This document shows, piece after piece, positions 5,691 through 29,191 of a DNA stretch of 29,191 bases (within the stretch, counting starts at the first letter, position 1; every line of letters begins with the position of its first letter). The stretch is from a virus. The stretch spans positions 1 to 29,191 of IMG/VR virus record IMGVR_UViG_3300035126_000169, one strand, 5' to 3'. Under the pieces are notes generated by a model. It was given only the letters and a program-made list of their open reading frames with translations, was not told where the DNA came from and did no database searches. The translations under genes and the position numbers were made by a program.

Positions 5691-5932
5691 GTCCTACCCC
5701 CTTTCCGCTTTAAGCGCTCAGATAGCATGGCGTCGGCGTGTCTATATGCCCATATTGCAAGACTATCGGGCGGGTCGATGGTATTCATCATGCCCATCAA
5801 CGCTGCGGCGGCGAAATAGTCTCGCAACGTCATGCCATCGCTTCCTGTAGCCATGCAGCTTTTGCCATTAGAATTTGTGAAGTGAAACGCCTGAATCGGA
5901 AACGCCGGCCCTCCGTCTGATGGTGTTCTCAT
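5687..5932 (-). CDS. Conserved small phage protein, 81 aa
   Basis: It matches a very common phage hypothetical pattern: GGPAFP near the N-terminus, GMTLRDYFAAAAL in the middle and an AYRHADAMLSERLK helix at the end. The function is unknown. The start is well supported: AAGGAGGTG ends a few bases before ATG 5932, and the ATG overlaps the nuclease stop codon. Confidence 0.82.
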   Translation of the reverse strand: MRTPSDGGPAFPIQAFHFTNSNGKSCMATGSDGMTLRDYFAAAALMGMMNTIDPPDSLAIWAYRHADAMLSERLKRKGGRT

Positions 5933-6825: not shown

Positions 6826-7124
6826 AGCGCACCGCCTTCCAGCGCCTCGGCCTGCGCAACAAGCTTTGCGGCACGCTGGCGCAGCTCCTCGGATGAGCGC
6901 GTCGCAAGGTGGTCGATGGCTTCGGCTGGCGTTTCGCAGTAAGTGCTGGCGAGATGCTGATTGCCTACAGCGATACCAACGCCGAAGAAGACCTTGTTGT
7001 CTCCCCAGTATGCAACGGTGACCGAGTGATGACTCGCACCGGGAAACGCGCTCTTTAGCTTACTCATAACCGGAGACAGGAGAACGCGAGCCTGCTCTGC
7101 GGTTGTTGTGTTGTTGTGTTCCAT
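6822..7124 (-). CDS. Hypothetical early phage protein, 100 aa
   Basis: The start is set at ATG 7124, just after the stop of the upstream HTH gene; the frame is open to 7307, but that part overlaps the HTH gene out of frame. The protein has a beta-rich centre (HHSVTVAYWGDNKVFFGVGIAV) and a helical C-terminus (EELRQRAAKLVAQAEAL). No family is recognised. It ends in an ATGA overlap with the RecE-like gene, so it belongs to the recombination operon. Confidence 0.65.
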   Translation of the reverse strand: MEHNNTTTAEQARVLLSPVMSKLKSAFPGASHHSVTVAYWGDNKVFFGVGIAVGNQHLASTYCETPAEAIDHLATRSSEELRQRAAKLVAQAEALEGGAL

Positions 7125-7144
7125 GACCGAAAGTTTGATTCGTG

Positions 7145-7540
7145 CTAATCGGTATCCGGCACGCTGCCGCGCGACTCGGAGGAGGTCGTCGCAGCGTTCG
7201 GGAGTGAGCGTCGCAAAATGCGCTGGCGCTCCTGACGGTTGGTACGATGCGTCCATGTAGATGCGTAATGAAGGCCGACTCGCTTGGCTAGTTCGCGCGT
7301 AGTCCATCCTTCGGCGTCGGCCAGATCAAACAGCGCCTCCTGCTCCGGAGTCAGTGCGATCTTTGAGCGGTGGGAGGCGATTGGCTTTGTGTGGTCCCCA
7401 TTGACCTTGACCGCGTTGCGCTTGATGAGTTTGCGCATCTCCGCCCTTTCCCTCTCGGCTAGTGCTTCCTTCTTCTTCCAGGTCTCGGCGGCGCGTTCCA
7501 TAAAGCGTAGGCAGGACGCGACTTCTTGGGCGGAGGGCAT
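7145..7540 (-). CDS. Helix-turn-helix protein, 131 aa
   Basis: The N-terminal half is a charged helix (FMERAAETWKKKEALAERERAEM). Residues about 62-92 (LTPEQEALFDLADAEG then WTTRELAKRVGLHYAS) form a likely helix-turn-helix of the sigma region 4 or transposase type, so it may bind DNA as a regulator. An in-frame TAA two codons upstream of ATG 7540 fixes the start. Its first 215 bases overlap the tail end of a membrane-protein ORF in another frame. GC-rich third positions indicate that this frame is the one under selection in the overlap. Confidence 0.65.
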   Translation of the reverse strand: MPSAQEVASCLRFMERAAETWKKKEALAERERAEMRKLIKRNAVKVNGDHTKPIASHRSKIALTPEQEALFDLADAEGWTTRELAKRVGLHYASTWTHRTNRQERQRILRRSLPNAATTSSESRGSVPDTD

Positions 7541-7682
7541 CGAGATTTACTGGGTCGACAATTTGAGAGAGCTTGCGCCAGCGATACACGCGATAGATTC
7601 GCCGTGCGCGGAAGAGGACGTGAACAGATGCGGCCAGACTGACCGCGCCGATAATGACAGAGCAGATGAGTGCAGCATTCAC
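7326..7682 (-). CDS. Small membrane protein with doubtful C-terminus
   Basis: GTG 7682 overlaps the TGA of the ribbon-helix-helix gene (GTGA) and has GGAG five bases upstream. Residues 1-24 form one transmembrane segment (ALICSVIIGAVSLAASVHVLF), followed by a basic cytoplasmic stretch (RARRIYRVYRWRK). After about residue 48 the frame runs through the HTH gene and its composition becomes poor, like an out-of-frame reading. Either the genes truly overlap, or an indel or frameshift truncates this protein. Proximity to the lysozyme allows a lysis role such as a spanin or accessory holin, unproven. Confidence 0.5.
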   Translation of the reverse strand: MNAALICSVIIGAVSLAASVHVLFRARRIYRVYRWRKLSQIVDPVNLDALRPRSRVLPTLYGTRRRDLEEEGSTSREGKGGDAQTHQAQRGQGQWGPHKANRLPPLKDRTDSGAGGAV

Positions 7683-7816
7683 CGTTTCTCCAGTGCGGTG
7701 CGTATGGCCTCGCGGACCACATCGGACACGCTTAGTTGCCGCTCGGCCGCCATGGCTTGCAGCTGCTTCAGTTGCTTGGTCGTGATGACCAGTGAGATTT
7801 TAGACTGAGGGAGCAT
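7679..7816 (-). CDS. Ribbon-helix-helix protein, 45 aa
   Basis: A compact CopG/Arc-type fold: strand KISLVITTKQL, helix QLQAMAAERQ, turn LSVSDVV and helix REAIRTALEK. Such proteins dimerise and bind operators. The ATG at 7816 lies 17 bases inside the 3' end of the preceding gene, which also encodes a ribbon-helix-helix-like protein. Its stop overlaps the GTG of the membrane protein. Confidence 0.72.
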   Translation of the reverse strand: MLPQSKISLVITTKQLKQLQAMAAERQLSVSDVVREAIRTALEKR

Positions 7817-7982
7817 TGCGGGAGATGATCTGCTCAAGGAAGGTTGCCGGCTGAATGCCGCGGACCGCGGCTGCCCAGCGGATGCGTTCGATGAGTCGTG
7901 GCTCGATGCGCCAGGGAATCATGACCTTAGCTCCAGCCGGCGATGGCTTGCGACCTGCGCCAGTACGAGTGCCGCCTCTCAT
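7800..7982 (-). CDS. Ribbon-helix-helix-like protein, 60 aa
   Basis: It begins with MRGGTRTGAGRKPSP, a basic leader common in phage DNA-binding proteins. The rest resembles a ribbon-helix-helix unit: strand KVMIPWRI, helix PRLIERIRWAAAVRG, helix PATFLEQIISR. ATG 7982 overlaps the lysozyme stop as ATGA. Two adjacent proteins of this fold may form separate dimers or a heterodimer; a late-gene regulatory role is inferred. Confidence 0.68.
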   Translation of the reverse strand: MRGGTRTGAGRKPSPAGAKVMIPWRIEPRLIERIRWAAAVRGIQPATFLEQIISRNAPSV

Positions 7983-8362
7983 TGCATGGCCCTCCGCACG
8001 CGCTCGGCGTACGCTTTGGTCTGCAACTTCAAGTGGCCTCTAGGTCCGCCATTATGGATGCGCGCCAAGGTCTCGATATCGCCGGCCGCCCACGCTTTCG
8101 GTGCGTAGCGCTTGAGATAGGCGGTCACGACCTTCCGGCTGTATGCCAGATCATCGACCTGCTCATAAGCACCAGCCACGCGGGAGTCGGCATGATAGGC
8201 GCGCATAATCTGCAGCGGTCCACGGCTGCGGCCTTGATCGCCAAGGATGACGCCAGTGCGTCTGCCACCACTCTCGACGACGTGTAGAGCACGCCAGAAC
8301 GACTCGGGCGGTGCTGCGTGGACTGCGCTGGTCAGCAGCGCGATGATGAGTAGTGAGCGCAT
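7979..8362 (-). CDS. Secreted lysozyme resembling i-type (destabilase) lysozymes
   Basis: A 127-residue endolysin-like muramidase. Residues 1-16 form a signal peptide (MRSLLIIALLTSAVHA), so export by the host Sec system is likely. Glu30 (HVVESGG) is followed by GDQGRSRGPLQI, where Asp42 may be the second acid, then RAYHADSRV and a helix with VVTAYLKRYAP. ARIHNGGPRG and a TKAYAERV end complete it. This order, ARIHNGGP above all, resembles animal i-type lysozymes, but the cysteines of those enzymes are absent. A general lysozyme or lytic transglycosylase is the alternative. It would cleave peptidoglycan during lysis. Confidence 0.75.
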   Translation of the reverse strand: MRSLLIIALLTSAVHAAPPESFWRALHVVESGGRRTGVILGDQGRSRGPLQIMRAYHADSRVAGAYEQVDDLAYSRKVVTAYLKRYAPKAWAAGDIETLARIHNGGPRGHLKLQTKAYAERVRRAMQ

Positions 8363-8366
8363 TGGA

Positions 8367-8630
8367 TTAGCGAGAATTTAACTGCCAAGAAAATGTACCA
8401 AGGTCAGCTGCGGCGCGTTCGGCAAGCCATGTCGGAACTGCCCACATATCTTGCGGTTCCACTTGGTAGAAGTCGTCCTTGAGGAACTGGCACTGTGACT
8501 TCGGAAGCCAAGCCAAACGGCGAGAGTGACCGCATCCAACGGCGATTGCTTTTGCCGTTTCGCGGAGCGGCTTCACAAGAATCATGGAGCGATCAGAATT
8601 GATCCAGTCGGTCATCGTTGCGAGGTTCAT
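8367..8630 (-). CDS. Small phage protein, 87 aa
   Basis: The start is ATG 8630; a TTG two codons upstream is less likely. It contains ETAKAIAVGC, LAWLPKSQCQF and VPTWLAERAA, a beta-rich pattern common in short phage and plasmid proteins of unknown function. The stop lies four bases before the lysozyme ATG, so the two are translated together. Confidence 0.6.
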   Translation of the reverse strand: MNLATMTDWINSDRSMILVKPLRETAKAIAVGCGHSRRLAWLPKSQCQFLKDDFYQVEPQDMWAVPTWLAERAAADLGTFSWQLNSR

Positions 8631-8676
8631 GACCAAAACAAAGACAGACTGCCGCTAGCGCTGCAAGCAGATTCTT

Positions 8677-8691
8677 TCGGATTTTATCCGA
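8677..8691. other. Short hairpin in a 97-base intergenic gap
   Basis: The sequence TCGGAT-TTT-ATCCGA is a perfect 6-bp inverted repeat in the gap between the genes ending at 8728 and starting at 8630. There is no T tract, so it is not an intrinsic terminator. It could be an operator or an mRNA hairpin near the 5' end of the lysis segment. I found no convincing -35/-10 pair in the same gap. Confidence 0.35.
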
Positions 8692-8727
8692 TTATTGCAG
8701 CAAGCCAGAGATCAACGAGTTACGCAA

Positions 8728-8931
8728 TTAATCAACTGAGCACGGATCCTTTTGTCGCTCGCCGGACTCTAGCTCAAGATCGCTGCGCACCTCCTCGCAG
8801 CCGGACGGATCAGCCACGAGGTAGTCAATCGTTGCCGCTCGATAGACGTGGCCGACGACGACGTAACCGCAGGACGGGTCAATGCGTGACCGCACCAGTT
8901 CACCGAGTGCAAACTGTGGCGGTCGGTCCAT
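8728..8931 (-). CDS. Small beta-rich protein, 67 aa
   Basis: The segment FALGELVRSRIDPSCGYVVVGHVYR then IDYLVADPSGCEEV looks like a small SH3-like barrel with turns at glycine, similar to many phage hypothetical proteins. It ends in an acidic tail. ATG 8931 overlaps the upstream TAA by one base. No function is known. Confidence 0.6.
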   Translation of the reverse strand: MDRPPQFALGELVRSRIDPSCGYVVVGHVYRAATIDYLVADPSGCEEVRSDLELESGERQKDPCSVD

Positions 8932-9185
8932 TAGGTCGTTCGGTACCAGACGCGCTTCCGTAGTCGTGATCCATCGCGCACGTTGCCATCGAATTTCTCC
9001 AGCTTGCCTGCACGCAAACCTTCGCGGACGACCGAGTAGATCCGGTCCATGCTGACCTTGTGGCGCGTGGAGATCTCCGCAACAGTCAGCCAGCCGTCGC
9101 CGGTTGGCAGACGCTCGGCGCGCAGCACAGCCTCGGCCAGTAGCTTTGCCCAGGCGTCAGTATTTCCGGATGCTTTCCGCGGCAT
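8931..9185 (-). CDS. Winged-helix DNA-binding protein, 84 aa
   Basis: The start is ATG 9185 because GGAGG lies 7 to 8 bases upstream; the longer frame to 9461 only overlaps the phosphoesterase gene. Residues about 27-60 (GWLTVAEISTRHKVS, then MDRIYSVVREGLRAGKLE) fit a helix-turn-helix, and the closing GSRLRKRVWYR strand fits a wing. It is a probable transcription regulator. The gene overlaps the 3' end of the phosphoesterase by 29 bases. Confidence 0.7.
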   Translation of the reverse strand: MPRKASGNTDAWAKLLAEAVLRAERLPTGDGWLTVAEISTRHKVSMDRIYSVVREGLRAGKLEKFDGNVRDGSRLRKRVWYRTT

Positions 9186-9900
9186 AGAATGATCCTCCGA
9201 TTTTTTTACTCTGGAAAAGCTGATAGGTTCCGTCGTCGAACAGCACGCCGTAGCACCAGGCGTTGTCGTGGCGCAGCTTAGAAACCATGTGCGCGTTGTA
9301 GCCCATGTCGATGCGACAGCAACAGCCAATGCCGCGCGCCTCGGCCGGTCCTTCGATGCTTTCAACGGGCGCCGAGTCGGTGGCGTGGACGTGTCCGAAT
9401 AGGCAGTTGCCGTAGGCGATGGCGTGCCGTCGAGCAGCGCCGAGGCCGGCGAAGTAGCCATGCACGACGCGAAGGTGACCCAGTCTTAGCACGCCCAGCC
9501 GAGAATCGTAAGGCAGCATCTTAGCCTTTGCGCCGTGAATCAGACGCGCAATGCGCTTGATGCCCTCGCGTGCGTAGTCTGCGGCAAGGCCGCTCGCGCT
9601 ATCGGCCAAGCGGTAGAGTCTCTCGTCGTGGTTGCCTCTCAGGAAGTGGTTCTCTTTACCACCGTCAAAGTAGGCGCGGATCCACTCGACGCCGGCCGTC
9701 CAGTCATCCTCCAGGCTGTGCATCTTCTCCTCGTCAGATGCTCCCTTGCGCAGATTGCGAAAGTCCCAGCAGTCGCCGGCGTGAATGCGGATCTCTGGCC
9801 GGAAGTCTTTGATGAACGCCAGCAAAGCACGCTGCGTCACCTCGTCGAACTGGTCGCCGTGGTTGTCTGCTGCCACCACGAAGCGACGTCCTCTAGACAT
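9157..9900 (-). CDS. Calcineurin-like metallophosphoesterase
   Basis: A 247-residue two-metal phosphoesterase with the full motif set: DNH at 12-14, GDCWDF at 42-47, GNHDE at 89-93, VHGY at 146-149 and GHVH at 169-172. It could hydrolyse phosphomonoesters, diesters or nucleotides; the substrate cannot be told. It sits immediately after the tail genes with an 8-base overlap. Phage homologues often have this location without known function. DNA end processing, cyclic-nucleotide removal or RNA repair are possible but untested. Confidence 0.88.
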   Translation of the reverse strand: MSRGRRFVVAADNHGDQFDEVTQRALLAFIKDFRPEIRIHAGDCWDFRNLRKGASDEEKMHSLEDDWTAGVEWIRAYFDGGKENHFLRGNHDERLYRLADSASGLAADYAREGIKRIARLIHGAKAKMLPYDSRLGVLRLGHLRVVHGYFAGLGAARRHAIAYGNCLFGHVHATDSAPVESIEGPAEARGIGCCCRIDMGYNAHMVSKLRHDNAWCYGVLFDDGTYQLFQSKKIGGSFYAAESIRKY

Positions 9901-10237
9901 CCTCAGCCTGCGCTAGGTCAGGCAGCGTGATGCCGTTCAGAACTTTGACGCATCGCGGCTCGTTCTTGGCGATGGCGTACATCTGAGCAAGCAATCGGTC
10001 ATTGGCACCGTTGAGCGCTGAGTTGCTCAGGTACTGCGCGAAGACATCGTCACGCACGTTCAGCTGTGCGACCAGTCCAAGCGGATAGGCCGGAGCAGAG
10101 GCAGCCTGCGCAGCGTTGAGATACAGTGCAAGGTAACCTAGTGCGCTGCCGAGGTTGCGGTCCCATTCGACGCTGGTCAGTCGGAGGTAGTCGCCAGTCG
10201 CGCCGTTGGGGAGGGTGATGGAAAGTTTCAGTGCCAT
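9893..10237 (-). CDS. Putative minor virion protein, 114 aa
   Basis: It follows the tail tip gene after only three bases (TAACCTATG). Residues 1-25 (LKLSITLPNGATGDYLRL) look beta-rich, followed by helices rich in alanine. No family is recognised with certainty. Its place directly behind the tail tip suggests a tail or host-range accessory protein. Confidence 0.6.
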   Translation of the reverse strand: MALKLSITLPNGATGDYLRLTSVEWDRNLGSALGYLALYLNAAQAASAPAYPLGLVAQLNVRDDVFAQYLSNSALNGANDRLLAQMYAIAKNEPRCVKVLNGITLPDLAQAEDV

Positions 10238-10240
10238 AGG

Positions 10241-13200
10241 TTATGGAACAAGGCCGTGGTGCTGGAGTGCGGAGATGACTTCGTTGAGCGTCGCTGGAGT
10301 GGTCGCGTAGCGAGTGGATACTACTTTAGACGACTGGACGTAAAGATCGCCCGTGGCGTTATCGACGCGGAACTGCTGCACTGTGCTCGCATCAAAAATG
10401 CGAAAGTTGGTGCCGTACACGTCAACTGCGGTGGTCTCGTTTGCTTCAAATCCTCGTCGCTCGATTGTCGGTGAGACACTGATCGGCACCTTGACCTTTG
10501 TCGCCGTAATCGAGACGGCGTTCATGGTTACGCTGGCAACGGTGCCACCAGTTACGTCGACGGCATCGCTGTCCTGCGCTGAAAGCGTGCCGGTGCCGTA
10601 GACTGCGGAGCCGTTAGCATTTCCAAGAGCGACCCATGAGCTTGCAATGCCGGCGCGGTTTACTGCGCGAATGCGGACATACCCAGGCGGAAGCAGCGAG
10701 TTATACAGGAAAAACTCGGTCTCTCGCGTCTGGTAAACAGTAGGCGATCCACTGCCGCTGAACCATGCATAATCCGTTGCTGAATCGCTATCGGTCGTCG
10801 TCGCCTTGATCTCGTAGTAGGCAAAGTCCCGCTCGGTGTTTGGCGACCACTTGGCGCGAGTTCCGAAATAGAAGATCTTGGTGTTGGCGATGTAAACTGG
10901 AATGACGCCATCCTTTGAAAGCGATCCTCCAGAAGGAGCGGCAGGAGCAGACGTAGACGACGTGGCAGTGTACGGCGAGAACGCAGCCGTGACGACGTTG
11001 CTCGGAATGTTTGTAAACGACCAAGCCTGCGATGCGATGTCGTAGGTGACGCCAGGCGTCAGGTCATCGAGTACCGAGGAGATAGCGCCAGAGTTTCCGA
11101 ACTGGCCGGCGATCTCGTAACCAGTCGCAGCGCCCTGCTTCCGGTAGAGGATATTCTGGATGCGAGCACCGGACGGCAGCGCAGCAACGGTCACAGTGAC
11201 GAGAACGCGAGCGCCGCCATCACTGGCGAGGTAAATCGTGTCGCTGATCTTTGTGAGCGCGGTCGGATCTGAGGGCGCCGTGGAGTCAATCGAGCCAGAC
11301 GTGACGACAACCGGCGTGGCGTTAACCGAGGAAGAGAAGGCCGAATAGTTCTCGGTCGCGTCAATCGCATTGACCCAGTAATAGTACGTCGTTGCAAAGT
11401 TGACCGTCGTGTCGACAAAGCGGTCAGCGCCGACCTCGGCAATCTTGTTCGTGGCAGTCGTTCCCGGCGTCACTCCGGTCGTGTTGCGGTACACGCCGTA
11501 TTCAAAAATGTCGTTGGCCGTGACTGCCGTCCACGAGAGGGAGACCGCTCGGCCCGTACCCACCGCGGCATTGAGGCCGGTTGGTGCATTAGGCGCGATA
11601 GTGTCGCTCGGTGCTGTCCGAGTTAACGCGGTCGAAACTGTGGAGAAGATGCCGGCCGTGTTCACTGCACGACACGCGAACTCGTAACTGATTCCCGGCA
11701 CCAAGTTGTCGACTTCAAACGCCGTGGCCGTGGCAGAATCAACTTGGCCCTCGGTCTTGTAGCCACTGGTTCCGCTGATGCGGCTCAAGATGTCCAGCGC
11801 GATGCCGCCAGTAGGAAGGCCAGGAACAGTGATCGAGATCGCTGCGCTCGTCGTGCCGTCGCTGGACTCATAGACGCGCTCGCTGATGAAGGTCGGAGCG
11901 CTCGGCGTGTTAGGCGGCGTCAGGTCAGGCGAAGACGTGATGGCCTGCGGCGTGGCTTGCGCGCGGTTAGAGAAGCCGGACACATTCTCCAGCCGGTCAT
12001 AAGCGTTGACCCAATAGTAGTACGTCGTTCCGACGTTGACCTCGGCATCGAAGAACCGCGAACTGCGCGCCTCGGCAATCTTGTTGAACGTGGCACTAGC
12101 CGGAGTGACGCCGGTCGTGTTGCGGTAGATTCCGTACTCGGAAAAGTCTGGAGCGGTTACGTCGTCCCAATCTAGGCTGACTGCCTTGCCGCTGCCAATG
12201 TTGGCGGTGAGACTGGTCGGAATATCGGGCGCGGTTGTATCGGGCTGAACAGTGATGCTGGCGCTGACGTAACTTGAGGAAACTTTGAAATAGGACTCGC
12301 CGTAGATGCGCACATCGTAGCGCGTTCCAATGCGAACATCACTCGTGATGTACTCAAGAGTTTGATCTCCAGGCACGCGCGCCCAAGTTAAATAGGTGGT
12401 TGAAGCACTCTCCTTGTAATCTATTCCAACGAAGCCGCCAGACTGTACGAATTCCTCAGATGGCGCAGACCAGGCGACCTTGATCCGCGGAAGTGCGGTG
12501 CCGTCTGCTTGATATTGTTGAGTCGTTCCATCTGCTGCCAGCGTCAATGAAGTAGGAGCAGCAACAATGAATGGATTGGGTAACGTCGTATTCGGTGCCG
12601 CAGTAACTGCGATCTCGTCCGAGACGGTGTAGCTGTAAACCGTCGAATCCATCTCGCGCAAAGTCATGTCGACCGCCAGCTGTGGCGGTTGACCATCCGC
12701 AACGAAGGTCCACTCCATTACTTCGAAAACTTTGTTCGTCCAACCGAGCTTCGTGTTGGAGATCATCACGGTTTCACCGGCGCGTAACTGCATCGCTTCA
12801 AGTCGGAAGCGAGCAGTTAGGATGATCTCTTGGCGTGCGCGCCGTAGTTCAACAACCGCGAGACGCTGCGCGCACGACGGCGAGATCGTAAACGGCAGCG
12901 ATACGTCGCGCGTGTACTTGATTCCGTTGTCCTCGGTGACGTAGGTCGTCGACGTGATAACCGGAAAGTCTGCCGGCTGCCACTGGTTCTCGGACGAAAC
13001 GTAAACGCCCTTGACCGTGTTGACTCGATCTCGCGCACTCGTGCGAGTAGTCACTGACATCGGCCCGACGAAGTGCTTCTCGTTTAAGCTGATTGTCGGA
13101 ATCTGATACGTCGCGGCGTACATCACCACCTTGCCGGATGAGTACGCAAGGAGTCCGCCCATTGCGGACAGTAGCTTTGCAATCGCGGCATCCGGTGCCT

Positions 13201-14047
13201 CGCTGGTCGTAATGCTGCCGTGCGATTCGTAGCGGTTCTCGTAGGTAGCCGGAGACAGTGGCAGAATCTGCACCTGCTCGTCGCAGACATTGGCTGCTAC
13301 GTTGCAGGCGGTATCGTCGATTTCGGCACTCGCCATCGCTAGGCCCAGCGAAGACGTGAGGTAATCACGCAAGCACAGCGCAGGATTGGCAGAGTATGCC
13401 GTCGTCGCTGTGCGCGGATCGTAGACCTTCTTGCCCTTGATAATGAAGGACACGTTGGGAATGCCACCAACGAACACCTCGGTGTTCCACTTCAGCCGAA
13501 CGTAAACGCACGCGATGCCGGTCAGCTTGTGATCGCTGGTCCACTTTCCATCGGTCAGAGACGCGGTGTCGGTAACTAGCGTTGAGAACGCAGTCTGTCC
13601 GGATGCGCCCAGCTTCTTGTAAATGTCCGCATAGCCAGCGTACTTTCCGGTCGCGCTACCATCAGCTGATCCAGTCAGCACCAGATCCTCGTTGAAATAT
13701 ACGTCGCCAATCTCCTCTACCTCATGGCCCGCAGCCGCAATGACCATGTGCAGGTATTCATTCTTGGTTCCAGTAACCGAAAGATAAACGACCGTGCCAG
13801 ACAGCTTGCTCTGGCCGTAAATGATCTGACGCGCCGAGATTGGTGAGCGCACCATCTGACCGCGAGAGCCGAGCGAATCGGCCATGCTCGGCATCTTCGG
13901 CGTAAGCAGCTTTGAGGCCGCCATCGAAGCGCCCACCACTGCCACAGTCTTGACGATCCAGATCGCTGCTGTTTGCGAAATTGCGATGCCTGCCGTCTGT
14001 AGGCCAAGCCAGAGATAGTACGCGGCATTTACAATCAGATTCGGCAT
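10241..14047 (-). CDS. Tail tip / central fibre protein with FN3 domains (J-like)
   Basis: The largest complete gene (1268 aa). An apolar N-terminus (about 8-50) leads into the conserved J-like part (ARQIIYGQSKLSGTVVYLS, EVEEIGDVYFNED, and later the tail-protein-III-type region at about 200-480). Five fibronectin III-like domains follow, at about 497-600, 605-700, 710-810, 815-912 and 920-1025. The C-terminal 200 residues form a fibre-like part that probably contacts the host. It should sit at the distal end of the tail and begin adsorption and DNA ejection. It follows the NlpC/P60-like gene, as in lambda-type tail clusters. Confidence 0.9.
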   Translation of the reverse strand: MPNLIVNAAYYLWLGLQTAGIAISQTAAIWIVKTVAVVGASMAASKLLTPKMPSMADSLGSRGQMVRSPISARQIIYGQSKLSGTVVYLSVTGTKNEYLHMVIAAAGHEVEEIGDVYFNEDLVLTGSADGSATGKYAGYADIYKKLGASGQTAFSTLVTDTASLTDGKWTSDHKLTGIACVYVRLKWNTEVFVGGIPNVSFIIKGKKVYDPRTATTAYSANPALCLRDYLTSSLGLAMASAEIDDTACNVAANVCDEQVQILPLSPATYENRYESHGSITTSEAPDAAIAKLLSAMGGLLAYSSGKVVMYAATYQIPTISLNEKHFVGPMSVTTRTSARDRVNTVKGVYVSSENQWQPADFPVITSTTYVTEDNGIKYTRDVSLPFTISPSCAQRLAVVELRRARQEIILTARFRLEAMQLRAGETVMISNTKLGWTNKVFEVMEWTFVADGQPPQLAVDMTLREMDSTVYSYTVSDEIAVTAAPNTTLPNPFIVAAPTSLTLAADGTTQQYQADGTALPRIKVAWSAPSEEFVQSGGFVGIDYKESASTTYLTWARVPGDQTLEYITSDVRIGTRYDVRIYGESYFKVSSSYVSASITVQPDTTAPDIPTSLTANIGSGKAVSLDWDDVTAPDFSEYGIYRNTTGVTPASATFNKIAEARSSRFFDAEVNVGTTYYYWVNAYDRLENVSGFSNRAQATPQAITSSPDLTPPNTPSAPTFISERVYESSDGTTSAAISITVPGLPTGGIALDILSRISGTSGYKTEGQVDSATATAFEVDNLVPGISYEFACRAVNTAGIFSTVSTALTRTAPSDTIAPNAPTGLNAAVGTGRAVSLSWTAVTANDIFEYGVYRNTTGVTPGTTATNKIAEVGADRFVDTTVNFATTYYYWVNAIDATENYSAFSSSVNATPVVVTSGSIDSTAPSDPTALTKISDTIYLASDGGARVLVTVTVAALPSGARIQNILYRKQGAATGYEIAGQFGNSGAISSVLDDLTPGVTYDIASQAWSFTNIPSNVVTAAFSPYTATSSTSAPAAPSGGSLSKDGVIPVYIANTKIFYFGTRAKWSPNTERDFAYYEIKATTTDSDSATDYAWFSGSGSPTVYQTRETEFFLYNSLLPPGYVRIRAVNRAGIASSWVALGNANGSAVYGTGTLSAQDSDAVDVTGGTVASVTMNAVSITATKVKVPISVSPTIERRGFEANETTAVDVYGTNFRIFDASTVQQFRVDNATGDLYVQSSKVVSTRYATTPATLNEVISALQHHGLVP
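10975..12235 (-). repeat. Tandem duplication of a two-domain FN3 unit in the tail tip gene
   Basis: Residues about 605-813 and 814-1025 of the tail tip protein repeat the same two-domain order. The first domains of both units share EYGxYRNTTGVTP, NKIAE and TTYYYWVNA; the second domains share a GYxxxGQ and LxPGxxY pattern. It reflects an internal duplication of about 630 bp. Confidence 0.75.
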
Positions 14048-14050
14048 GGC

Positions 14051-14467
14051 TTAAAGTTTCCAGAAACGAGCGTCTGCTTGAAGGCCAGTTGGCAAAAATT
14101 CCAGACCGTGCTTTGCTACGAATGCGGACTGCGTACCGAGAACAATTCCGATACAATCACCGTCGCCCGAATCCCGCACGATCAGGTCGCCGGCGGTCGC
14201 CTCGCTCACTGAGGCAGGCCGGGCAACTTCTTTCAGACAGTGGTTCACGAACGGCACTAGGCCGCCAAGAGAGGCGGTGAGGCGATGCGCACCGAGTGCC
14301 GAGTTGTACCGTCCGCGGAAGCCGTCTGCAAGATCGTAGCGCGTTGCTGTCTTGATCCAGTCTGCAGCGAACAGACAGCAATCATGGCTCCCCCATTCAA
14401 ACGCGCGGTTGCGGCGTTCGTCGATAAACTGCGCGAGCAGCGTGCGCCAGTTGTCGACTCGGCTCAT
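14051..14467 (-). CDS. NlpC/P60-like tail peptidase (DUF6950-like)
   Basis: A 138-residue protein with the cysteine peptidase layout of phage tail-associated hydrolases: FEWGSHDCCLFAADW with the candidate nucleophile Cys30, then AGDLIVRD and an IGIVLG strand. The expected histidine is not clear; His119 in AKHGLEF is possible. It may cut peptidoglycan cross-bridges during DNA entry and assist tail tip assembly. It lies where lambda gpK lies, upstream of the J-like gene. Confidence 0.78.
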   Translation of the reverse strand: MSRVDNWRTLLAQFIDERRNRAFEWGSHDCCLFAADWIKTATRYDLADGFRGRYNSALGAHRLTASLGGLVPFVNHCLKEVARPASVSEATAGDLIVRDSGDGDCIGIVLGTQSAFVAKHGLEFLPTGLQADARFWKL

Positions 14468-15111
14468 ATAATGCGGTCTGGATTGCGATCAATTTCAGGC
14501 GGGTCGTTGCCACCGTTCCACAGACTAGGATTCGTCGGGTTGGGGCTGCCCCAGTAAATGGTTTTTTCCTGAATCGCCGTGACGAATTCTAGACCCTTGT
14601 CGGTCGCATCAATGGCAGTCTGTTCCTCGTCGGTGTAGCGACTCTCGCGCACACGGCGAAAGTCGATCAGTCGCGATTCAGCGCTCATCGTAATCTGCGC
14701 TTGCTCGCCATCGTCCGAGATAGCCATCACGTCCATCTTGCCGACAAACACAGTGACAGGTGACGCGATCAGCGAGGCCGTCGTCGACAGCGCACCTAGC
14801 ATGATCGAGCAGTTGCGGCCTTGGTAGTCCTCGTTGAGTGCAAGAGAAATGTACGCAGTCGGAACTCCGGAAAGCTGGAACGTGACTCCACGCGCCGACA
14901 AGTCCGTCGTCTCCTCAATTGGTGCGACGTTCCCGAGATCTCCCAGACCAAGATACCCTTTGCCTGCATAGGTCAGCGTTCCGTATCCAGTCCACAGGTA
15001 AACAGGTGTCGAAAACTCCATGTCCACCATGAGAATTGGTGACAGTTGCGCCGTGGTGACCTCGGCCACCATACCAGCCGTCATGGTCCTGCCTGCTGCG
15101 GTGATGCTCAT
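14464..15111 (-). CDS. Minor tail protein, DUF2163-like
   Basis: A beta-rich 215-residue protein: PVYLWTGYGTLTYAGKGYLG then GLGDLGNVAPIEET and LSARGVTFQLSGVP, a pattern typical of DUF2163 tail proteins placed before the NlpC/P60 peptidase. The C-terminus carries FRRVRESRYTDEEQ and a Trp/Pro-rich end. It probably forms part of the tail tip hub. Confidence 0.78.
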   Translation of the reverse strand: MSITAAGRTMTAGMVAEVTTAQLSPILMVDMEFSTPVYLWTGYGTLTYAGKGYLGLGDLGNVAPIEETTDLSARGVTFQLSGVPTAYISLALNEDYQGRNCSIMLGALSTTASLIASPVTVFVGKMDVMAISDDGEQAQITMSAESRLIDFRRVRESRYTDEEQTAIDATDKGLEFVTAIQEKTIYWGSPNPTNPSLWNGGNDPPEIDRNPDRII

Positions 15112-20555: not shown

Positions 20556-21142
20556 GGCAGCAGTCGGTTGTACTGATCGGCCGTCTTGCCGGCGACCCAG
20601 CCATGGAACCCGAAAGAGCAGGCAGGTCCGCAGTCGCCCTCCTCGATGTAGTGCTCCCATGAAAACTTGGCGGCAATCTCGACTGGCGCGTACTTCATGC
20701 CCAGTTCAGTCAGCGGGCGGTTGAGCACTTGGCAGGTGAACACGTCGCCATTCTGACCAGCCCAGAGCGGAATCGCTGCGGCCGTGGCCTCAAGGAAGCG
20801 CTTTGAACGCAGGCAGAATCCGGTATTCCCGACGCGGTGCTTTGTGCCCCAGGATGCCGGCCAAGGTGCGCCGATCATATCGTACTGCAACCAGTCATCA
20901 TTCCACAGTTGAGGGTTGATGATCCAGCCGTCATGCGAGACGAACAGCGCGTGCGAGGTGTGAACGTGGCGCGCTAGTTCCTCGATCTCGCAGCGCATCG
21001 CGTCTTGGTAGTTCTTAGGCGTGTCAATCAGCACCGAGGCTGCAAAGCCGAACATCCGTTCGCAGTGCCGCATCACGCGAGCGGTCCGCTCTGGATTCGC
21101 TCCATCCGTCGCGATCAGCGTCACATCCTTGAGAGTCTTCAT
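20552..21142 (-). CDS. DUF5672-like glycosyltransferase, 196 aa
   Basis: DUF5672 features are clear: SHDGWIINPQLW, YDMIGAPWPA (residues 88-96), RVGNTGFCLRSKRFLE (103-118), GQNGDVFTC, YAPVEIAAKFSWE and the FGFHGW end. This domain has a GT-A-like fold and is associated with glycan synthesis; donor and acceptor are unknown. ATGA overlaps link it to both flanking sugar genes, so the three are translated as a unit. Confidence 0.82.
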   Translation of the reverse strand: MKTLKDVTLIATDGANPERTARVMRHCERMFGFAASVLIDTPKNYQDAMRCEIEELARHVHTSHALFVSHDGWIINPQLWNDDWLQYDMIGAPWPASWGTKHRVGNTGFCLRSKRFLEATAAAIPLWAGQNGDVFTCQVLNRPLTELGMKYAPVEIAAKFSWEHYIEEGDCGPACSFGFHGWVAGKTADQYNRLLP

Positions 21143-22854
21143 GATGCCTCCTTGGTCACAGCGTCCGGATTGCGCAGCTGAAACAGCGCGCTACCTCGCG
21201 CATAGCGTTCGCGCTGGTTGTTGTGCTGGTAGGTCGCATCTAGTTGACCATGACCGAATTGCGGATGCGCGTGGACAAAGGTGATCTTGTCGCGTGCGTC
21301 GATGACCACGCCATCCTTCCAGGCTCGATGCGAAAACTCGTCATCCGAGAAGACCGACTCGTAGCCAGCGTAGAACATATCGCCCTGCTTCTCCCAGCGG
21401 CCGCGCGACATAATCGCCATGCAAAGCAGCGAGTCCTTGCGTGCGCCGTCGTTAATGGCGATGACGACTTCTTCCTTCGCAAGATCGCGGTTCGCGACTA
21501 GCTCTAGCAGTCGCAAGTCCCAGTGCAGCGGAGGCAGCCAATCATCGGATAGCTGAATGATGAGATCGCCAGACGCCTTGCGCGCTCCCTTGTTCCAAGC
21601 TGCTACGCAACTGCGCTGATCGGAAACGACGTGTTCGAACTGCTGGGACATCTCCATTGATACGTTGTCGTCGAGGTCGACGCAGAAGATGTGCTCCACG
21701 TTGGCCGGATTGAATGCGCTCTGCAGGAACGCCTCACGGCACGCCACGGCCTTGCTTGAACGACCGCGGGTCGCATGGACTAGCGAGATCGTTGGCCGTG
21801 AGTGATTGTGGAACATGGCCTGCAACTCAGCCGCACGCTCCATCTTGCCGGCGTATCGCGCTGCACGCGCGGCCAGATCAATGCCATACCAGCCGTAATG
21901 CTTGGCCTCGTGCGTCCACGGCCGGATCTCGCCTGGCGGTTCCGGCCGGAGCAGTGCCTGCTCGGCCCAGTAAAAGGCGCGTTCCTTGTCCTGCTTCTCG
22001 AAGTAGAGCAGCACCAGCGAGGTCAGCGCCTCGCGACACCAGGGAAACACGCCGTGCGCCTCTAGGCAGTAGCGGATGGCGTCGCGGTGATTGCCGCAGC
22101 ACCGTGCCAAGTTCAGAAGCGCCTCGTACTTAAACGAGTCCATCAAGTTCGGCATCGAGATCGCAATCTTCGCGAACTCCTCCGCGGCCTTGTAGTTGCC
22201 CGAGCAGTAGTGCTCTTGATGAAGGTAAAAATACTGTGCAGCCGTATCGCGAACTGAATTGCGCAGGATTCGCAGATTGCGCGTGCGGTTCTCTCGCTTG
22301 ACCTCAAGCGGTGCGTGGACCCAGACCGGATCGTTTAAGTCCATGTGCTTGTCGCCGGCGAGCAGCAGCAGGTTCTCGTGGACATCGTGGTGCCACTTAC
22401 GGCCGGCATGAAAACTCGCGCGGCGCATGGCTCGTTCACGGTAGAGCTTCTTATTCGTACCGCGGACATCGTAGAGGAATCGCACCATTGCCACCTCCGC
22501 TGCTACGCCGGCCAGCGTTTCGCGCAGACGCTCGGCACCGTCCATGATGTCGTCGCAATCGGCCCAGATCAGCCAGTCACCCGTGCCCTGCCGGAACGAG
22601 TCGTTGCGCGCCTCGCCGAAACTGTCGACGTGCTCCCATTTCTCCGCACCGTACTGGTTTTGATGCTCGGAGAAGATGAAGCGTTTGCCATTGGCTTCGC
22701 ACCAGTCACGCGCGATAGACAGCGTAGCATCCGGTTTCCGCGAGCCGATGGCTCGGACTAGAGAAAGTTCATCAAAGGCCGGAGCGAATGAGTCCAGCAT
22801 CCGGCCGATGTGGTGCTGTTCATTCCCGCAGATGACACAAAGCGAAATGCGCAT
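21139..22854 (-). CDS. Two-domain glycosyltransferase with central TPR region
   Basis: A 571-residue protein in three parts. Residues 1-190 form a family 2-type GT-A domain (ISLCVICGNEQHHIGRMLDS, DWLIWADCDDIMDG with a DxD-like CDD at 100-102). Residues about 200-345 are helical, TPR-like repeats (AQYFYLHQEHYCSGNYKAAEE, ALLNLARCC). Residues 354-560 begin ISLVHATRGR and carry VDLDD (392-396) and SGDLIIQLSDDW (428-439), a second GT-A-like domain. Two catalytic domains in one chain could add two sugars in succession. It lies just after twin terminators behind the capsid gene. Confidence 0.85.
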   Translation of the reverse strand: MRISLCVICGNEQHHIGRMLDSFAPAFDELSLVRAIGSRKPDATLSIARDWCEANGKRFIFSEHQNQYGAEKWEHVDSFGEARNDSFRQGTGDWLIWADCDDIMDGAERLRETLAGVAAEVAMVRFLYDVRGTNKKLYRERAMRRASFHAGRKWHHDVHENLLLLAGDKHMDLNDPVWVHAPLEVKRENRTRNLRILRNSVRDTAAQYFYLHQEHYCSGNYKAAEEFAKIAISMPNLMDSFKYEALLNLARCCGNHRDAIRYCLEAHGVFPWCREALTSLVLLYFEKQDKERAFYWAEQALLRPEPPGEIRPWTHEAKHYGWYGIDLAARAARYAGKMERAAELQAMFHNHSRPTISLVHATRGRSSKAVACREAFLQSAFNPANVEHIFCVDLDDNVSMEMSQQFEHVVSDQRSCVAAWNKGARKASGDLIIQLSDDWLPPLHWDLRLLELVANRDLAKEEVVIAINDGARKDSLLCMAIMSRGRWEKQGDMFYAGYESVFSDDEFSHRAWKDGVVIDARDKITFVHAHPQFGHGQLDATYQHNNQRERYARGSALFQLRNPDAVTKEAS

Positions 22855-22998: not shown

Positions 22999-23964
22999 TT
23001 AGCTGTACTGCGTAGCGACCAGCTGCGCAGCGTTGGTGTTGACGACCTTCTCGGCAACGTAGTGCGACGCGCGCACGATGTTGCTCTTGATGGCCTCATC
23101 ACGGTACGAGAACACGCCGGTCGGGCTGCCGTACTCCTGCCAGTTCAACGTGAAGGCAGCGCCACCTCCAAAATAGCCGGAGGAGGCATCGGTCACGGAA
23201 CCCACCCAGATGTAGTCATTCGACCACGCCTGCGCGGACGAGAACGCCAGACCTTCCTTGGCGGCATCGTAGCTCGCGCGACCAATCAGAACCTCGGAAA
23301 CGCCGAAGACCTCGGCAGCAGCCTGCTGCGAAGCGTTGAGGATGGTGTCCGTCGAGAGGCCCGTACCGCGGAGGCGGTTCTGGAACTTCGTGGACGCCTT
23401 GATGCGGGTCCAGACCGGGTTGCTCATGACAACGCGGAGGTTGTCGCGGCTTTCGCCCAGGGCCAGCAGGCGGTCAATCGCGGCCTCGACATCGAGACCC
23501 ACGTCGAACGTCGCGAGATTCGCGGTCGTGTACGCGGTGCCAGAGTTCGTCGAGGTGAACGTCGACGCATTGAAGATCGTGCTAGAAACGCGAAGTTCAT
23601 GCGCGAGCAGGAGCTTGCGGAGGCACAGCTTGGTCGCGATGACTTCGGCGTCGAAGAAGCGCGACACGTCCAAGGCCACCGTATCGTCTACGGCCTCTTC
23701 GTAGCCGTACTCCAGCGCGGTGTACGTCTCCTGCGTGAAGGCGCGCGTGCCGCGAGCGTAGGTCGCATACGGCGAACGGTTCTTCACGTCGCTCTTGAGC
23801 AGCTGGCCCTCCTTCAACTTGAAGGAAGGATACTGGCCGGCGCGGACGGGAACATTGAGAATGGGCATCACGCGGGTGCCGATCAGGTTGGACTCAAAGT
23901 CCTTGGCCTGTTCAACAACACCGGCGAGATCGCCACGGAAAATTGCAGCAGCGTTCGTATACAT
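22999..23964 (-). CDS. Major capsid protein
   Basis: A 321-residue protein with the features of HK97-fold coat proteins: N-terminal helix (AAAIFRGDLAGVVEQ), an E-loop region (GQYPSFKLKEGQLLKSD), a long spine helix (FFDAEVIATKLCLRKLL), P-domain VEAAIDRLLALGES and NLRVVMSNPVW, and a late segment LIGRASYDAAKEG and VGSVTDASSGYFGG. It has the typical order protease, decoration, coat. A pair of terminators follows directly, in keeping with high expression. The ribosome site is weak. Confidence 0.87.
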   Translation of the reverse strand: MYTNAAAIFRGDLAGVVEQAKDFESNLIGTRVMPILNVPVRAGQYPSFKLKEGQLLKSDVKNRSPYATYARGTRAFTQETYTALEYGYEEAVDDTVALDVSRFFDAEVIATKLCLRKLLLAHELRVSSTIFNASTFTSTNSGTAYTTANLATFDVGLDVEAAIDRLLALGESRDNLRVVMSNPVWTRIKASTKFQNRLRGTGLSTDTILNASQQAAAEVFGVSEVLIGRASYDAAKEGLAFSSAQAWSNDYIWVGSVTDASSGYFGGGAAFTLNWQEYGSPTGVFSYRDEAIKSNIVRASHYVAEKVVNTNAAQLVATQYS

Positions 23965-25913: not shown

Positions 25914-26360
25914 TTAAACGGGAAGGTCAGGCCAAGTCACACTAAAGGGGAATCCGGCCTGTGTGGTAATGTCTCGCAATCCTTGCCGATAAGTCGCCCA
26001 AGCGCTTTTTGCCGTTCCATTTAGCGGCGTGTCATCTAGTTGAGTCCAATCGCTCGCCGTCAGCTTCGCATTTCGCTCCGATCTGATATTCTCGGCTGCT
26101 TGGCGCTCAATCTCCTGCTTGTCGGCATCGGAGAATGGTGCCCATTGCTTCACCTCGATGACCTCGGTTTCGTGGATGACGAACTTAGATGCGACCATCT
26201 TATCGCCGCCGGTTCCTTCGTCTATGCGACAAGGAAGCCAGCCCAGCTTCAAGAGGTTGGCCGGATCCATTAGATTCAGGCCGGAAACATTGCGCCACGA
26301 CTTTGGCAGTCCGCGTGGACCGTCGACTATCGCTCCATTTTCTACTAGGCAGTAGTTCAT
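25914..26360 (-). CDS. Tail-fibre assembly-type protein
   Basis: A 148-residue protein. The C-terminal part (ERNAKLTASDWTQLDDTPLN, then WATYRQGLRDITTQAGFP and VTWPDLPV) has the pattern of phage tail assembly chaperone/fibre-assembly proteins. The N-terminus MNYCLVENGAIVDGPRGLP is also typical. It lies downstream of the RCC1-repeat protein, with one sugar gene between, so it may fold or attach that fibre. Confidence 0.78.
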   Translation of the reverse strand: MNYCLVENGAIVDGPRGLPKSWRNVSGLNLMDPANLLKLGWLPCRIDEGTGGDKMVASKFVIHETEVIEVKQWAPFSDADKQEIERQAAENIRSERNAKLTASDWTQLDDTPLNGTAKSAWATYRQGLRDITTQAGFPFSVTWPDLPV

Positions 26361-27337
26361 AGTTTTTTGATTAGTTCCGACCGAACTTCACTCAGTGGAT
26401 GCGACCAGTCGCCGTACTGTTGCTGGCGGAAAAGTTTCACTGATTCATACCATACAGACGTTGGCTTCCGTTCGGCCCAGGCGTAGTAGGGCATAATAGG
26501 TACAATCACCCATGTCTCCTTGCCAAGTGCTGCGGAAAGGTGCGCGATTGAGGTGCAGGACGTAATCACCAAATCCAGCCCAGCGATTATGCTGGCAGTG
26601 TCCTCAAAGGTCTTCATCTGTTCCCGCAGGTCGGCAAATGGCAGGCCGTCCACAAGGTTCTCGTCTCGCTGGAGGCTGTACAGCGTAACGCCGTCAATGC
26701 TGTGCAAATCAATCAACGGCTGGGGATCAAAACGGCGATGCTGCTCGTGCTCAAACTTCGGATTTCCCGCCCAGCGGATGCCTACCTTCAACGTGTTCGG
26801 CTTAACGTAGAGCTTTTTGGGTTCGGCGGTGAGGTACGCCTTGCCGGGAAACGTGTCCTTGTCGTAGCCCAGAATGTGCGCGGCTGACATCGAAGGCACC
26901 CAGTAGTCGTAGTGAATGTAGGGCGTTGCTCCGTTGTCGATGCAGACGAACCCATGCCGCGAAAAGAGCGGCATCAACTCGGGAGCGCAGGACAAAACTA
27001 CACGCGCACCTTTCGCCGCGAAGTCCTTGGCAAACCGGAAGTTCATGATCTGATCGCCAAGACCATTCTCGCACCGGAACAACAGTGTCTTGTTGGTCAG
27101 GTCTTCGTCTTTCCAGATTGGACCCGGAATGCGAGGCAGGCCAAAGACGTTGATGAACCGCCCAGCGTCCATCATTTGCAGCCCCTTCTTTAGGTTGCCG
27201 TGACGCATCTCGTGCCAGCCCAGATTAAAAATGATCCGCGCATCGTCCTGTTCCGGGTAGGAACGGAGAACATCCTCAGAAACCTCAGGATGTCCGTTGA
27301 TGCACGCTTGGAGCGCAATGTCTAGTGAGTGAATCAT
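26357..27337 (-). CDS. TPR plus GT-B glycosyltransferase-like protein
   Basis: A 326-residue protein. Residues 1-70 form TPR-like helices (ARIIFNLGWHEMRHGNLKKGLQMMD). From 85 on it resembles family 9 glycosyltransferases: TLLFRCENGLGDQIMNFRFA (85-103), VGIRWAGNP, then DTASIIAGLDLVITSCTSIAHLSAALGK and VIVPIMPYYAW. Such TPR-GT9 fusions are frequent in bacterial glycan loci. It sits between the RCC1-repeat gene and a fibre-assembly gene, so it may modify the fibre; this is inference. Confidence 0.8.
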   Translation of the reverse strand: MIHSLDIALQACINGHPEVSEDVLRSYPEQDDARIIFNLGWHEMRHGNLKKGLQMMDAGRFINVFGLPRIPGPIWKDEDLTNKTLLFRCENGLGDQIMNFRFAKDFAAKGARVVLSCAPELMPLFSRHGFVCIDNGATPYIHYDYWVPSMSAAHILGYDKDTFPGKAYLTAEPKKLYVKPNTLKVGIRWAGNPKFEHEQHRRFDPQPLIDLHSIDGVTLYSLQRDENLVDGLPFADLREQMKTFEDTASIIAGLDLVITSCTSIAHLSAALGKETWVIVPIMPYYAWAERKPTSVWYESVKLFRQQQYGDWSHPLSEVRSELIKKL

Positions 27338-29191
27338 AGCTTCAAAGCGCCACTACTATTGGCGTTTGCAATATATAGACTAAGTTCTTCCCAGTCCGAC
27401 AGTGCTCCGATCTGCACCGGAGAGGATTTGCTAACCGCTGAGCCATCTCCCAGTTGGCCGGATCCTCCACCACCCCAAGCCCACAGCGTCCCATTAGTTT
27501 TGACCGCTAATGAATGAACGTTCCCAGCGGCTACTTGTGCCCAGTCCGAAAGTGCTCCGATCTGTACCGGAGAGGATTTGGTAACCGCTGAGTCATCTCC
27601 CAGTTGGCCGCTTGTTCCCGCACCCCAAGCCCACAGCGTCCCATTAGTTTTGACCGCTAATGCATGAGCGGATCCAGCGGCTACTTGTGCCCAGTCCGAA
27701 AGTGCTCCAATCTGCACCGGAGAGGATTTGCTGACCGTTGTACCGTCTCCGAGTCGACCGGATCCTCCAGCACCCCACGCCCACAGCGTCCCATTAGTTT
27801 TGACCGCTAATGAATGAAAGGATCCAGCGGCTACTTGTGCCCAGTCCGAAAGTGCTCCAATCTGCACCGGAGAGGATTTGCTGACCGTTGTGCCGTCTCC
27901 GAGTTCACCGTTTGTTCCAAAACCCCAAGCCCAGAGGGTTCCATTAGTTTTGACTGCTAATGAATGAGATTGTCCACCGGCTACTTGTGCCCAGTCTGAA
28001 AGCGCTCCAATCTGCACCGGAGAGGATTTGGTGACCGCTGAGCCATCTCCAAGTCGACCGACTCCTCCATCACCCCAAGCCCACAAAGTTCCGTCGGTTT
28101 TGACCGCTAATGAATGAGCGGATCCAGCGGCTACTTGTGACCAGTCCGTAAGGCTTCCGACTTGAACTGGTGATGAAAATGCAGTGGCTTCAGAGTTGTT
28201 GCCAAGAGCCCCATTGAGTCCCGATCCCCATGCCCACAAAGAACCGTTGGATCCAATTGCCGCGACGTGGGCGCTACCAAATGATATAGAAGACCAATCC
28301 GAAGACCCGATTTGTACTGGGGACGATAGATTCCACTGATTCAATCCAAGTTGTCCGCTTGTTCCAAGGCCCCACGCCCAGATTTCTCCGTCAGTTTCTA
28401 TAGAATAGCCAGATGTAGAGCCAGCAGTGATTTGTGACCAACTCGTACTTGATCCAATCTGAACCGGAGAAGATTTGCTTACCACTGTGCCGTCGCCGAG
28501 TTGACCGCTTGATGCTAAACCCCACGCCCACAGCGTTCCATTGGTCTTGACCGCTAAAGAAAAAGCGCCCCCACCGGCTACTTGTGCCCAGTCTGACAGT
28601 GCTCCGATCTGCACCGGAGAGGATTTGGTGGCCGATGTGCCGTCGCCGAGTCGGCCATCTGTTCCCAAACCCCAAGCCCACAAGGTTCCGTTGGTTTTGA
28701 CTGCTAGTGAATGATTGCTCCCAGCGGCAACTTGTGACCAGTCCGATAGCGCCCCAATTTGCACCGGAGAGGATTTGGTGACCGTTGAGCCGTCGCCGAG
28801 TCGACCGCTTGTTCCCAAACCCCAAGCCCACAAGGTTCCGTTGGTTTTGACCGCTAGTGAAAAAGAATTTCCACCGGCTACCTGTGACCAGTCCGACAGT
28901 GCTCCGATCTGCACCGGAGAGGATTTGCTAACCGTTGAGCCGTCGCCAAGTTGACCGGCTATTCCAGAACCCCAAGCCCACAGCGTTCCGTTGGTTTTGA
29001 CCGCTAGTGAATGATTGTCTCCACCGGCAACTTGTGACCAGTCCGATAGCGCCCCAATTTGCACCGGAGAGGATTTGGTGGCCGATGTGCCGTCGCCGAG
29101 TCGGCCATCTGTTCCCAAACCCCAAGCCCACAAGGTTCCGTTGGTTTTGACCGCTAATGAATGAAAGGATCCAGCGGCTACTTGTGCCCAG
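27334..29191 (-). CDS. RCC1-repeat fibre-like protein, 5' end missing
   Basis: Open to the window edge, so the start lies beyond 29191. The visible 619 residues hold 12 units of about 50 residues with the RCC1 signature: KTNGTLWAWG, G-x-LGDG, KSSPVQIG, then SDW-QVAAG and HSLAV. RCC1 units form seven-bladed propellers; twelve visible units mean at least two propellers or an open repeat array. The unit sequence differs mainly after WAWG and at VAAG/VAGG. The last 15 residues (YIANANSSGALKL) form a short tail. A virion fibre or receptor-binding role is inferred from the neighbours. Confidence 0.85.
   Translation of the reverse strand, partial: WAQVAAGSFHSLAVKTNGTLWAWGLGTDGRLGDGTSATKSSPVQIGALSDWSQVAGGDNHSLAVKTNGTLWAWGSGIAGQLGDGSTVSKSSPVQIGALSDWSQVAGGNSFSLAVKTNGTLWAWGLGTSGRLGDGSTVTKSSPVQIGALSDWSQVAAGSNHSLAVKTNGTLWAWGLGTDGRLGDGTSATKSSPVQIGALSDWAQVAGGGAFSLAVKTNGTLWAWGLASSGQLGDGTVVSKSSPVQIGSSTSWSQITAGSTSGYSIETDGEIWAWGLGTSGQLGLNQWNLSSPVQIGSSDWSSISFGSAHVAAIGSNGSLWAWGSGLNGALGNNSEATAFSSPVQVGSLTDWSQVAAGSAHSLAVKTDGTLWAWGDGGVGRLGDGSAVTKSSPVQIGALSDWAQVAGGQSHSLAVKTNGTLWAWGFGTNGELGDGTTVSKSSPVQIGALSDWAQVAAGSFHSLAVKTNGTLWAWGAGGSGRLGDGTTVSKSSPVQIGALSDWAQVAAGSAHALAVKTNGTLWAWGAGTSGQLGDDSAVTKSSPVQIGALSDWAQVAAGNVHSLAVKTNGTLWAWGGGGSGQLGDGSAVSKSSPVQIGALSDWEELSLYIANANSSGALKL
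27390..29191 (-). repeat. Array of about 150-bp repeats encoding RCC1 units
   Basis: About twelve imperfect 150-bp units, many nearly identical at the DNA level. For example, about 90 identical bases are shared by the copies near 28612-28702 and 29062-29152, 450 bp apart. Two units in the middle (about 28141-28440) are the most diverged. The likeness indicates recent duplication or gene conversion, and makes copy number change likely. Confidence 0.9.

Follow-up and report, generated by a model that had tools for sequence, protein, structure and literature searches.

The window analysed here is the entire linear IMG/VR record IMGVR_UViG_3300035126_000169 (29,191 nt), and its last part is occupied by an open reading frame on the minus strand that extends from position 27334 to the window end (618 aa) and has no start codon. 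The translated frame matches the Pfam profile PF00415 in 12 stretches (E-value 3.9e-132, 431 bits, over the Pfam cut-off) and PF13540 with 12 matches above the cut-off, while at the DNA level TRF reports a tandem array at 27390-29191 with a period of 150, 12.0 copies and a score of 1445. An earlier, sequence-only reading of this DNA had described at least 12 near-identical 150-bp RCC1 units. The 12 units and the period of about 150 nt are borne out but the near-identity is not: the full gene has ten 50-residue units (nine lie wholly inside the window) that are 75-90% identical in DNA, and units 7 and 8 (28147-28443) are clearly divergent, which is visible as a 447-nt step in the repeat spacing. 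The longest exact repeat between units of the gene is 92 nt.

The contig end cuts the gene, whose 5' end lies beyond the window. This end is probably an assembly break, since it corresponds to gene position 318 and falls within an 84-nt exact repeat (gene positions 282-365). The overlapping contig L009 (IMGVR_UViG_3300044638_001459) is 100% identical to the window across 5,874 nt and extends past the window end. It contains the full gene, whose 724-aa product starts with a leader and a half-blade, continues through 13 full units and ends in a second half-blade, i.e. 14 blades. The features in the window are the following:

27334..29191, minus strand: RCC1 propeller gene, 3' part (618 of 724 codons); the whole gene is L009 5152-7326
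29044..29191, minus strand: unit 2, truncated by the window end
28444..29043, minus strand: units 3 to 6, four regular 150-nt units
28300..28443, minus strand: unit 7, divergent, predicted final unit of the inserted propeller
28147..28299, minus strand: unit 8, divergent, where the outer propeller is predicted to resume
27397..28146, minus strand: units 9 to 13, five regular 150-nt units
27337..27396, minus strand: C-terminal half-blade DWEELSLYIANANSSGALKL, which with the N-terminal half-blade would close the outer propeller
26357..27337, minus strand: predicted glycosyltransferase gene (TPR-like plus GT-B; nearest fold family GT9, i.e. heptosyltransferases and TibC); its start overlaps the RCC1 stop (ATGA)
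25914..26360, minus strand: tail-fibre assembly chaperone (PF16778); its start overlaps the stop of the transferase gene

Gene neighbourhood

The gene order in L009 is the end of a portal-like gene (a putative identity, from reading the sequence), a 1169-aa fibre gene with a tail-fibre PHROG match at its C-terminus, the RCC1 gene, the transferase gene, the PF16778 chaperone gene and then the head genes of the window. The fibre gene is directly upstream of the RCC1 gene, its stop being 1 nt apart from the RCC1 ATG, and ATGA overlaps are found at both the RCC1/transferase and the transferase/chaperone junctions. A fibre-assembly gene had been thought to adjoin the array; it is indeed nearby, but the adjacent gene is glycosyltransferase-like and the chaperone comes after it.

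The model of the transferase combines TPR-like helices with a GT-B fold, the nearest folds being GT9 (Z 16.2) and TibC (Z 15.7). TibC modifies an adhesin. The likeness to TibC-type GT9 protein heptosyltransferases is one of predicted GT-B fold, at 11-13% identity; the neighbour transferase has extra N-terminal TPR-like helices. The GT9 profile PF01075 did not confirm the assignment among 24 members of the transferase family, where the best E-value was 0.00039 and the member in the window scored 13.4 bits against a cut-off of 22, and a comparison of the transferase sequence with solved structures gave no match at E up to 1.

The pairing of the two genes was followed in public metagenome contigs, probably mostly short-read, and the tallies cover the 80 closest loci of each search rather than a census, with close loci that are not independent of each other. 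Anchored on RCC1, 58 of the 80 loci have the transferase directly 3' of the RCC1 gene. Anchored on the transferase, in a set that overlaps the former, RCC1 lies directly 5' in 71 of the 80, and the remaining loci either have RCC1 via overlapping frames (4) or are at or near contig edges (5). The upstream genes have a tail-fibre PHROG in at least 26 of 38 cases (phrog_9017), with a collagen or Mtd domain at the N-terminus of some. Of 41 genes that come next, 10 encode a fibre chaperone, 7 a methyltransferase and several another transferase.

Among isolates, the Synechococcus phage BUCT-ZZ01 has a fibre gene, an RCC1 gene and the same transferase, LIBA6276 has an RCC1 gene beside a fibre gene, and S-SRM01 has three RCC1 genes among the distal fibre, a TPR protein and sugar-modifying genes. 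The S-SRM01 segment at 1671-14501 (locus L161), where the RCC1 genes lie among a TPR protein, a 2OG-Fe(II) oxygenase, a sulfotransferase, a glycosyltransferase and a nucleotide-sugar epimerase, looks like a glycan-decoration cassette beside the distal tail fibre. We also considered that the neighbour transferase N-glycosylates the NGT present in each unit, and rejected this idea because sequons are not commoner beside the transferase (share 0.27, as compared to 0.31 in loci without one; Mann-Whitney p 0.99); several transferase-linked RCC1 proteins have no sequon at all.

Predicted propellers and blade number

The AlphaFold2 model of the 724-aa protein was built with 26 relatives and has a pLDDT of 90.6 and a pTM of 0.85, with the N-terminal leader below a pLDDT of 50. 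UVR8 matches residues 51-393 of the model (Z 54.3, 341 residues, rmsd 1.5 A, 31% identity). The match to HERC2 RLD2 begins at residue 21 and ends at residue 724 (Z 52.1, 350 residues, 1.6 A), and other structures likewise match a residue set with these end points. Both alignments give, in prediction, a closed seven-bladed propeller, and together they indicate that one propeller is inserted in another, i.e. that the protein is predicted to consist of an inner propeller, contiguous at 51-393, nested inside an outer one made of residues 21-50 and about 394-724. Such an arrangement would explain both alignments, and the odd units 7 and 8 would mark the junction where the chain crosses between the propellers; this nesting is read from a single AlphaFold model and from where the alignments begin and end.

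UVR8 has the same seven-bladed fold, but it is a single propeller and a plant UV-B photoreceptor. A further match is BLIP-II (1jtd_B; Z 31.9, 32% identity over 265 residues), a bacterial RCC1-type seven-bladed binder that differs in being a single propeller, a secreted inhibitor and non-phage. BLIP-II binds beta-lactamase. A match to an RCC1-type fold by itself says nothing of function (such as Ran or nucleosome binding).

A blade profile was applied to the RCC1 proteins of the retrieved viral loci, which were clustered at 90% identity into 108 clusters. The number of blades ranges from 7 to about 56 and is a multiple of seven in 98 of the 108 clusters: 7 (50 clusters), 14 (33), 21 (7), 28 (4), 35 (1), 42 (2) and 49 (1). 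In several of the ten off-seven clusters the first or last half-blade was missed (e.g. 55 blades where 56 are expected), one starts at the contig start and one carries a long insert. The lineage of the window has 14 blades in every distinct genotype except one close group formed by L022 (12 blades), L089 (13) and L090 (14 hits, one blade being shortened by about 63 nt), of which L089 and L090 come from the same metagenome. L022 and L090 are 99.3% identical in the downstream flank, and 300 nt are absent between copies of a 67-nt exact repeat when the two are compared. The shortened arrays of this group may be assembly errors (collapse or misassembly), so an earlier concern about assembly collapse is fair in their case, but in two other genotypes separate metagenomes gave the same 14-blade gene (L017/L018/L019, identical; L012/L013/L015, nearly so, with one residue different).

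In another group, phages with transferases 94-98% identical have 21, 35, 42 and 49 blades, and L073 and L111, whose transferases are 98% identical, have about 28 and 21 blades, respectively. In these sequences the length differs between close phages by whole propellers. A simple tandem duplication of a whole propeller was rejected as the source of the extra propellers, as L042, L049, L079 and L066 share few long alignments and only L079 and L066 among them show propeller-sized blocks (1.05-1.18 kb at 81-82%). In one phage group (L114, L133, L134 and L141) the propellers are separate genes rather than one chain, with rows of 7 to 8 single-propeller RCC1 genes, each with its own leader.

Variation among units and between relatives

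The blades of L009 are 82% identical in DNA within the gene, as compared to 66-68% with blades at matching positions and 67% with blades at non-matching positions in relatives. Since blades of relatives are no closer at matching than at non-matching positions, the L009 units are, on this comparison, evolving in concert and the blade position is not remembered. Homogeneity within the gene is weaker or absent in other genes, and in the close pair L016/L017 the blade position is remembered (86% vs 59%).

The amino-acid variation clusters at eight positions of the 50-residue unit (9, 10, 11, 13, 26, 28, 29 and 39), and the variability profiles of 11 genes are similar (r 0.71-0.84 with L009). UVR8 was mapped to the unit by HMMER alignment, with the numbering fixed by the D96N, D107N and W285A entries. 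In UVR8 the dimer is held by the salt bridges R286-D96/D107 and R146-E182 (PMC5091643). W233, W285 and W337 fall on unit position 9, R234, R286 and R338 on position 10, and E182, R146, D96 and D107 on positions 26, 28 and 39. These five interface positions (9, 10, 26, 28 and 39) rank 3, 1, 2, 4 and 8 of 50 in variability (permutation p 5e-6), in other words five of the eight hypervariable positions match the UVR8 dimer interface.

With variable positions picked from other genes, pN/pS between the L009 units is 1.38 at variable positions and 0.18 elsewhere. In the other, more diverged genes, where silent sites are near-saturated, the values are 0.7-1.0 and 0.2-0.4, and the L016/L017 comparison yields 0.80 at variable positions, 0.29 at other positions and 0.12 in the transferase. 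This pattern suggests, but does not prove, diversifying selection at the variable positions. The RCC1 genes of L016 and L017 also show more silent change at the variable positions (dS 0.40 vs 0.21), a hint that blocks of sequence were imported in addition to point mutation.

The RCC1 gene evolves faster than its neighbour in three close pairs: the RCC1 proteins of L010 and L011 are 66% identical while their transferases are 99% identical, and the respective values are 74% and 96% for L022/L024 and 83% and 96% for L016/L017. Even though the RCC1 proteins of L010 and L011 have diverged to this extent, their leader, first half-blade and junction blades are conserved. At fixed length, the variation consists of changes at a few residues per unit plus the replacement of blades.

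The sequence-only reading had supposed a mechanism without a reverse transcriptase, and this holds as far as the searched records go: PF00078 has no match in the window or in the records, mostly fragments, of 8 relatives, and we rejected the target of a diversity-generating retroelement as an explanation on the same grounds. The variable codons are spread beyond adenines.

A candidate adhesin and competing explanations

We consider it probable that the product of the RCC1 gene is a receptor-binding adhesin sitting at the tip of the tail fibre, built of two propellers with a diversifying contact face, and with the neighbour transferase as a putative modifier of the adhesin or the fibre. The proposal joins computed features (the modelled fold and its closure, blade numbers in multiples of seven, concerted evolution, hypervariable positions and gene pairing) with what we infer about virion location, receptor binding, the role of the leader and the substrate of the transferase. 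A location in the virion is suggested by the gene context and by the published detection of the RCC1-like Gp1 of GAP32 as a structural protein by mass spectrometry (PMC5259590). The adhesin would be carried at the end of the fibre encoded by the gene just upstream, to which the short flexible N-terminal leader (about 20 aa) would attach it, as its position suggests. The inner propeller would be inserted after the first half-blade, and the half-blades at the two chain ends would pair to close the outer one. Blades would stay alike through gene conversion or unequal exchange, while about eight loop positions per blade vary on one interaction face, presumably the binding surface, and any gain or loss of array length would be limited to whole closed propellers (7 blades each). 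Modification of the adhesin or the fibre may fall to the adjoining glycosyltransferase and, in other phages, to methyltransferases and further transferases. The tail-fibre tip adhesin gp38 of T4-like phages is encoded by a variable gene directly downstream of the fibre gene, the same gene position as that of the RCC1 gene, although its fold is entirely different. A receptor-binding role had been proposed at the outset, and both the gene context and the pattern of variation support it, short of proof.

Other explanations have to be weighed against the adhesin. The protein may act outside the virion, as a binder in or outside the host cell (an inhibitor, or a blocker of rival phages) whose variable face tracks a changing host target. 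It belongs to the same fold family as the tight protein binder BLIP-II, and variable interface positions would suit any arms race; we nevertheless hold this to be unlikely, as the gene here has a fibre gene on one side and a fibre chaperone nearby on the other, and a fibre neighbour is seen at 26 of 38 loci. Somewhat less likely still, the propellers could be a structural or decorative part of the fibre that bears glycans made by the transferases or methyltransferases, the variable positions being unconstrained surface loops. The frequent transferase directly 3', the methyltransferases and other transferases among the next genes and a pN/pS near 0.7-1.0 in most genes would agree with such a role, but the variable positions coincide beyond chance with the partner-facing positions of UVR8, the ratio exceeds one in the least saturated gene (L009), and glycosylation at the NGT of the units failed as an explanation.

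It is very unlikely that recombination freely adds and removes single units and that copy number itself switches host range. The 300 nt missing in L022 relative to L090 could be taken for such an event, but the shortened arrays are confined to one contig group where collapse or misassembly is likely, and both the predominance of multiples of seven and the recurrence of the same 14-blade genes in separate metagenomes speak against it. Change of copy number, as first suggested, therefore lacks support unit by unit and is supported for steps of whole propellers, together with sequence turnover. Most improbable of all is a role of the protein in arranging the DNA packaged inside the head. The RCC1 name, the PHROG category (DNA metabolism) and the DNA ordering proposed by the phAPEC6 authors for RCC1-like proteins (PMC7247149) count against the adhesin, but the gene sits in a fibre cassette, and fast-evolving partner-facing residues and concerted evolution would be unexpected for an internal DNA-binding protein. 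The Rak2-like jumbo phages (GAP32 Gp1, phAPEC6, 121Q) also encode RCC1 repeats, although these are absent from the hits of the tblastn search and so only distantly related, and their function (DNA ordering) is a guess.

It is interesting to compare the phage RCC1 genes with the HNWD genes of Podospora anserina (het-d/het-e WD40, PMC12222747), which are the best parallel we found. Both have alike repeats that evolve in concert with a few hypervariable sites per repeat, and HNWD proteins too are predicted to form a pair of seven-bladed propellers with divergent 'cryptic' blades; their short-read assemblies are likewise unreliable (PMC12222747). On the other hand, HNWD repeats are WD40 and not RCC1, the proteins are fungal immune receptors without a transferase partner, and their 10-12 conserved repeats show length polymorphism at the level of units, whereas the total in phage RCC1 goes by sevens.

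Phage RCC1 genes currently carry annotations such as 'DNA metabolism' or 'chromosome condensation'. Should they turn out to be fibre-tip adhesins, host-recognition genes could be predicted for a large group of aquatic phages, and in every blade the binding residues would already be named. The length of a repeat protein would then be set by ring closure (multiples of seven), there would be a second, independent HNWD-type design in which a uniform repeat scaffold carries diversifying contact residues, and since a glycosyltransferase recurs as the partner, whether the adhesin or fibre is modified can be put to the test. The chances seem to us about even that the genes form a widespread class of phage adhesins, with 1 to 8 closed RCC1 propellers, whole-propeller gain and loss, concerted evolution about a hypervariable binding face, a dedicated glycosyltransferase and diversification of host recognition free of reverse transcriptase, convergent with HNWD.

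A few observations concern the remainder of the phage and its host. The gene at 21139-22854 (minus strand), adjoining the major head protein gene (22999-23964), encodes 571 aa with a GT2 domain and two matches to PHROG glycosyltransferases, and this is an unusual location for a glycosyltransferase. A host call via the transferase in bacterial genomes was abandoned, as it led to four MAG contigs from unrelated phyla. Three of these (L156, L157 and L159, from MAGs binned as Pseudomonadales, Planctomycetota and Patescibacteria) also carry RCC1 repeats, and such contigs could be prophages or misbinned phage contigs. At 10241-14047 (minus strand) there is a J-like central tail fibre of 1268 aa with fn3, the N-terminal half of which resembles tail proteins of Roseobacter phage (best matches 32-38%) and Pelagibacter phage; this resemblance hints at an alphaproteobacterial host.
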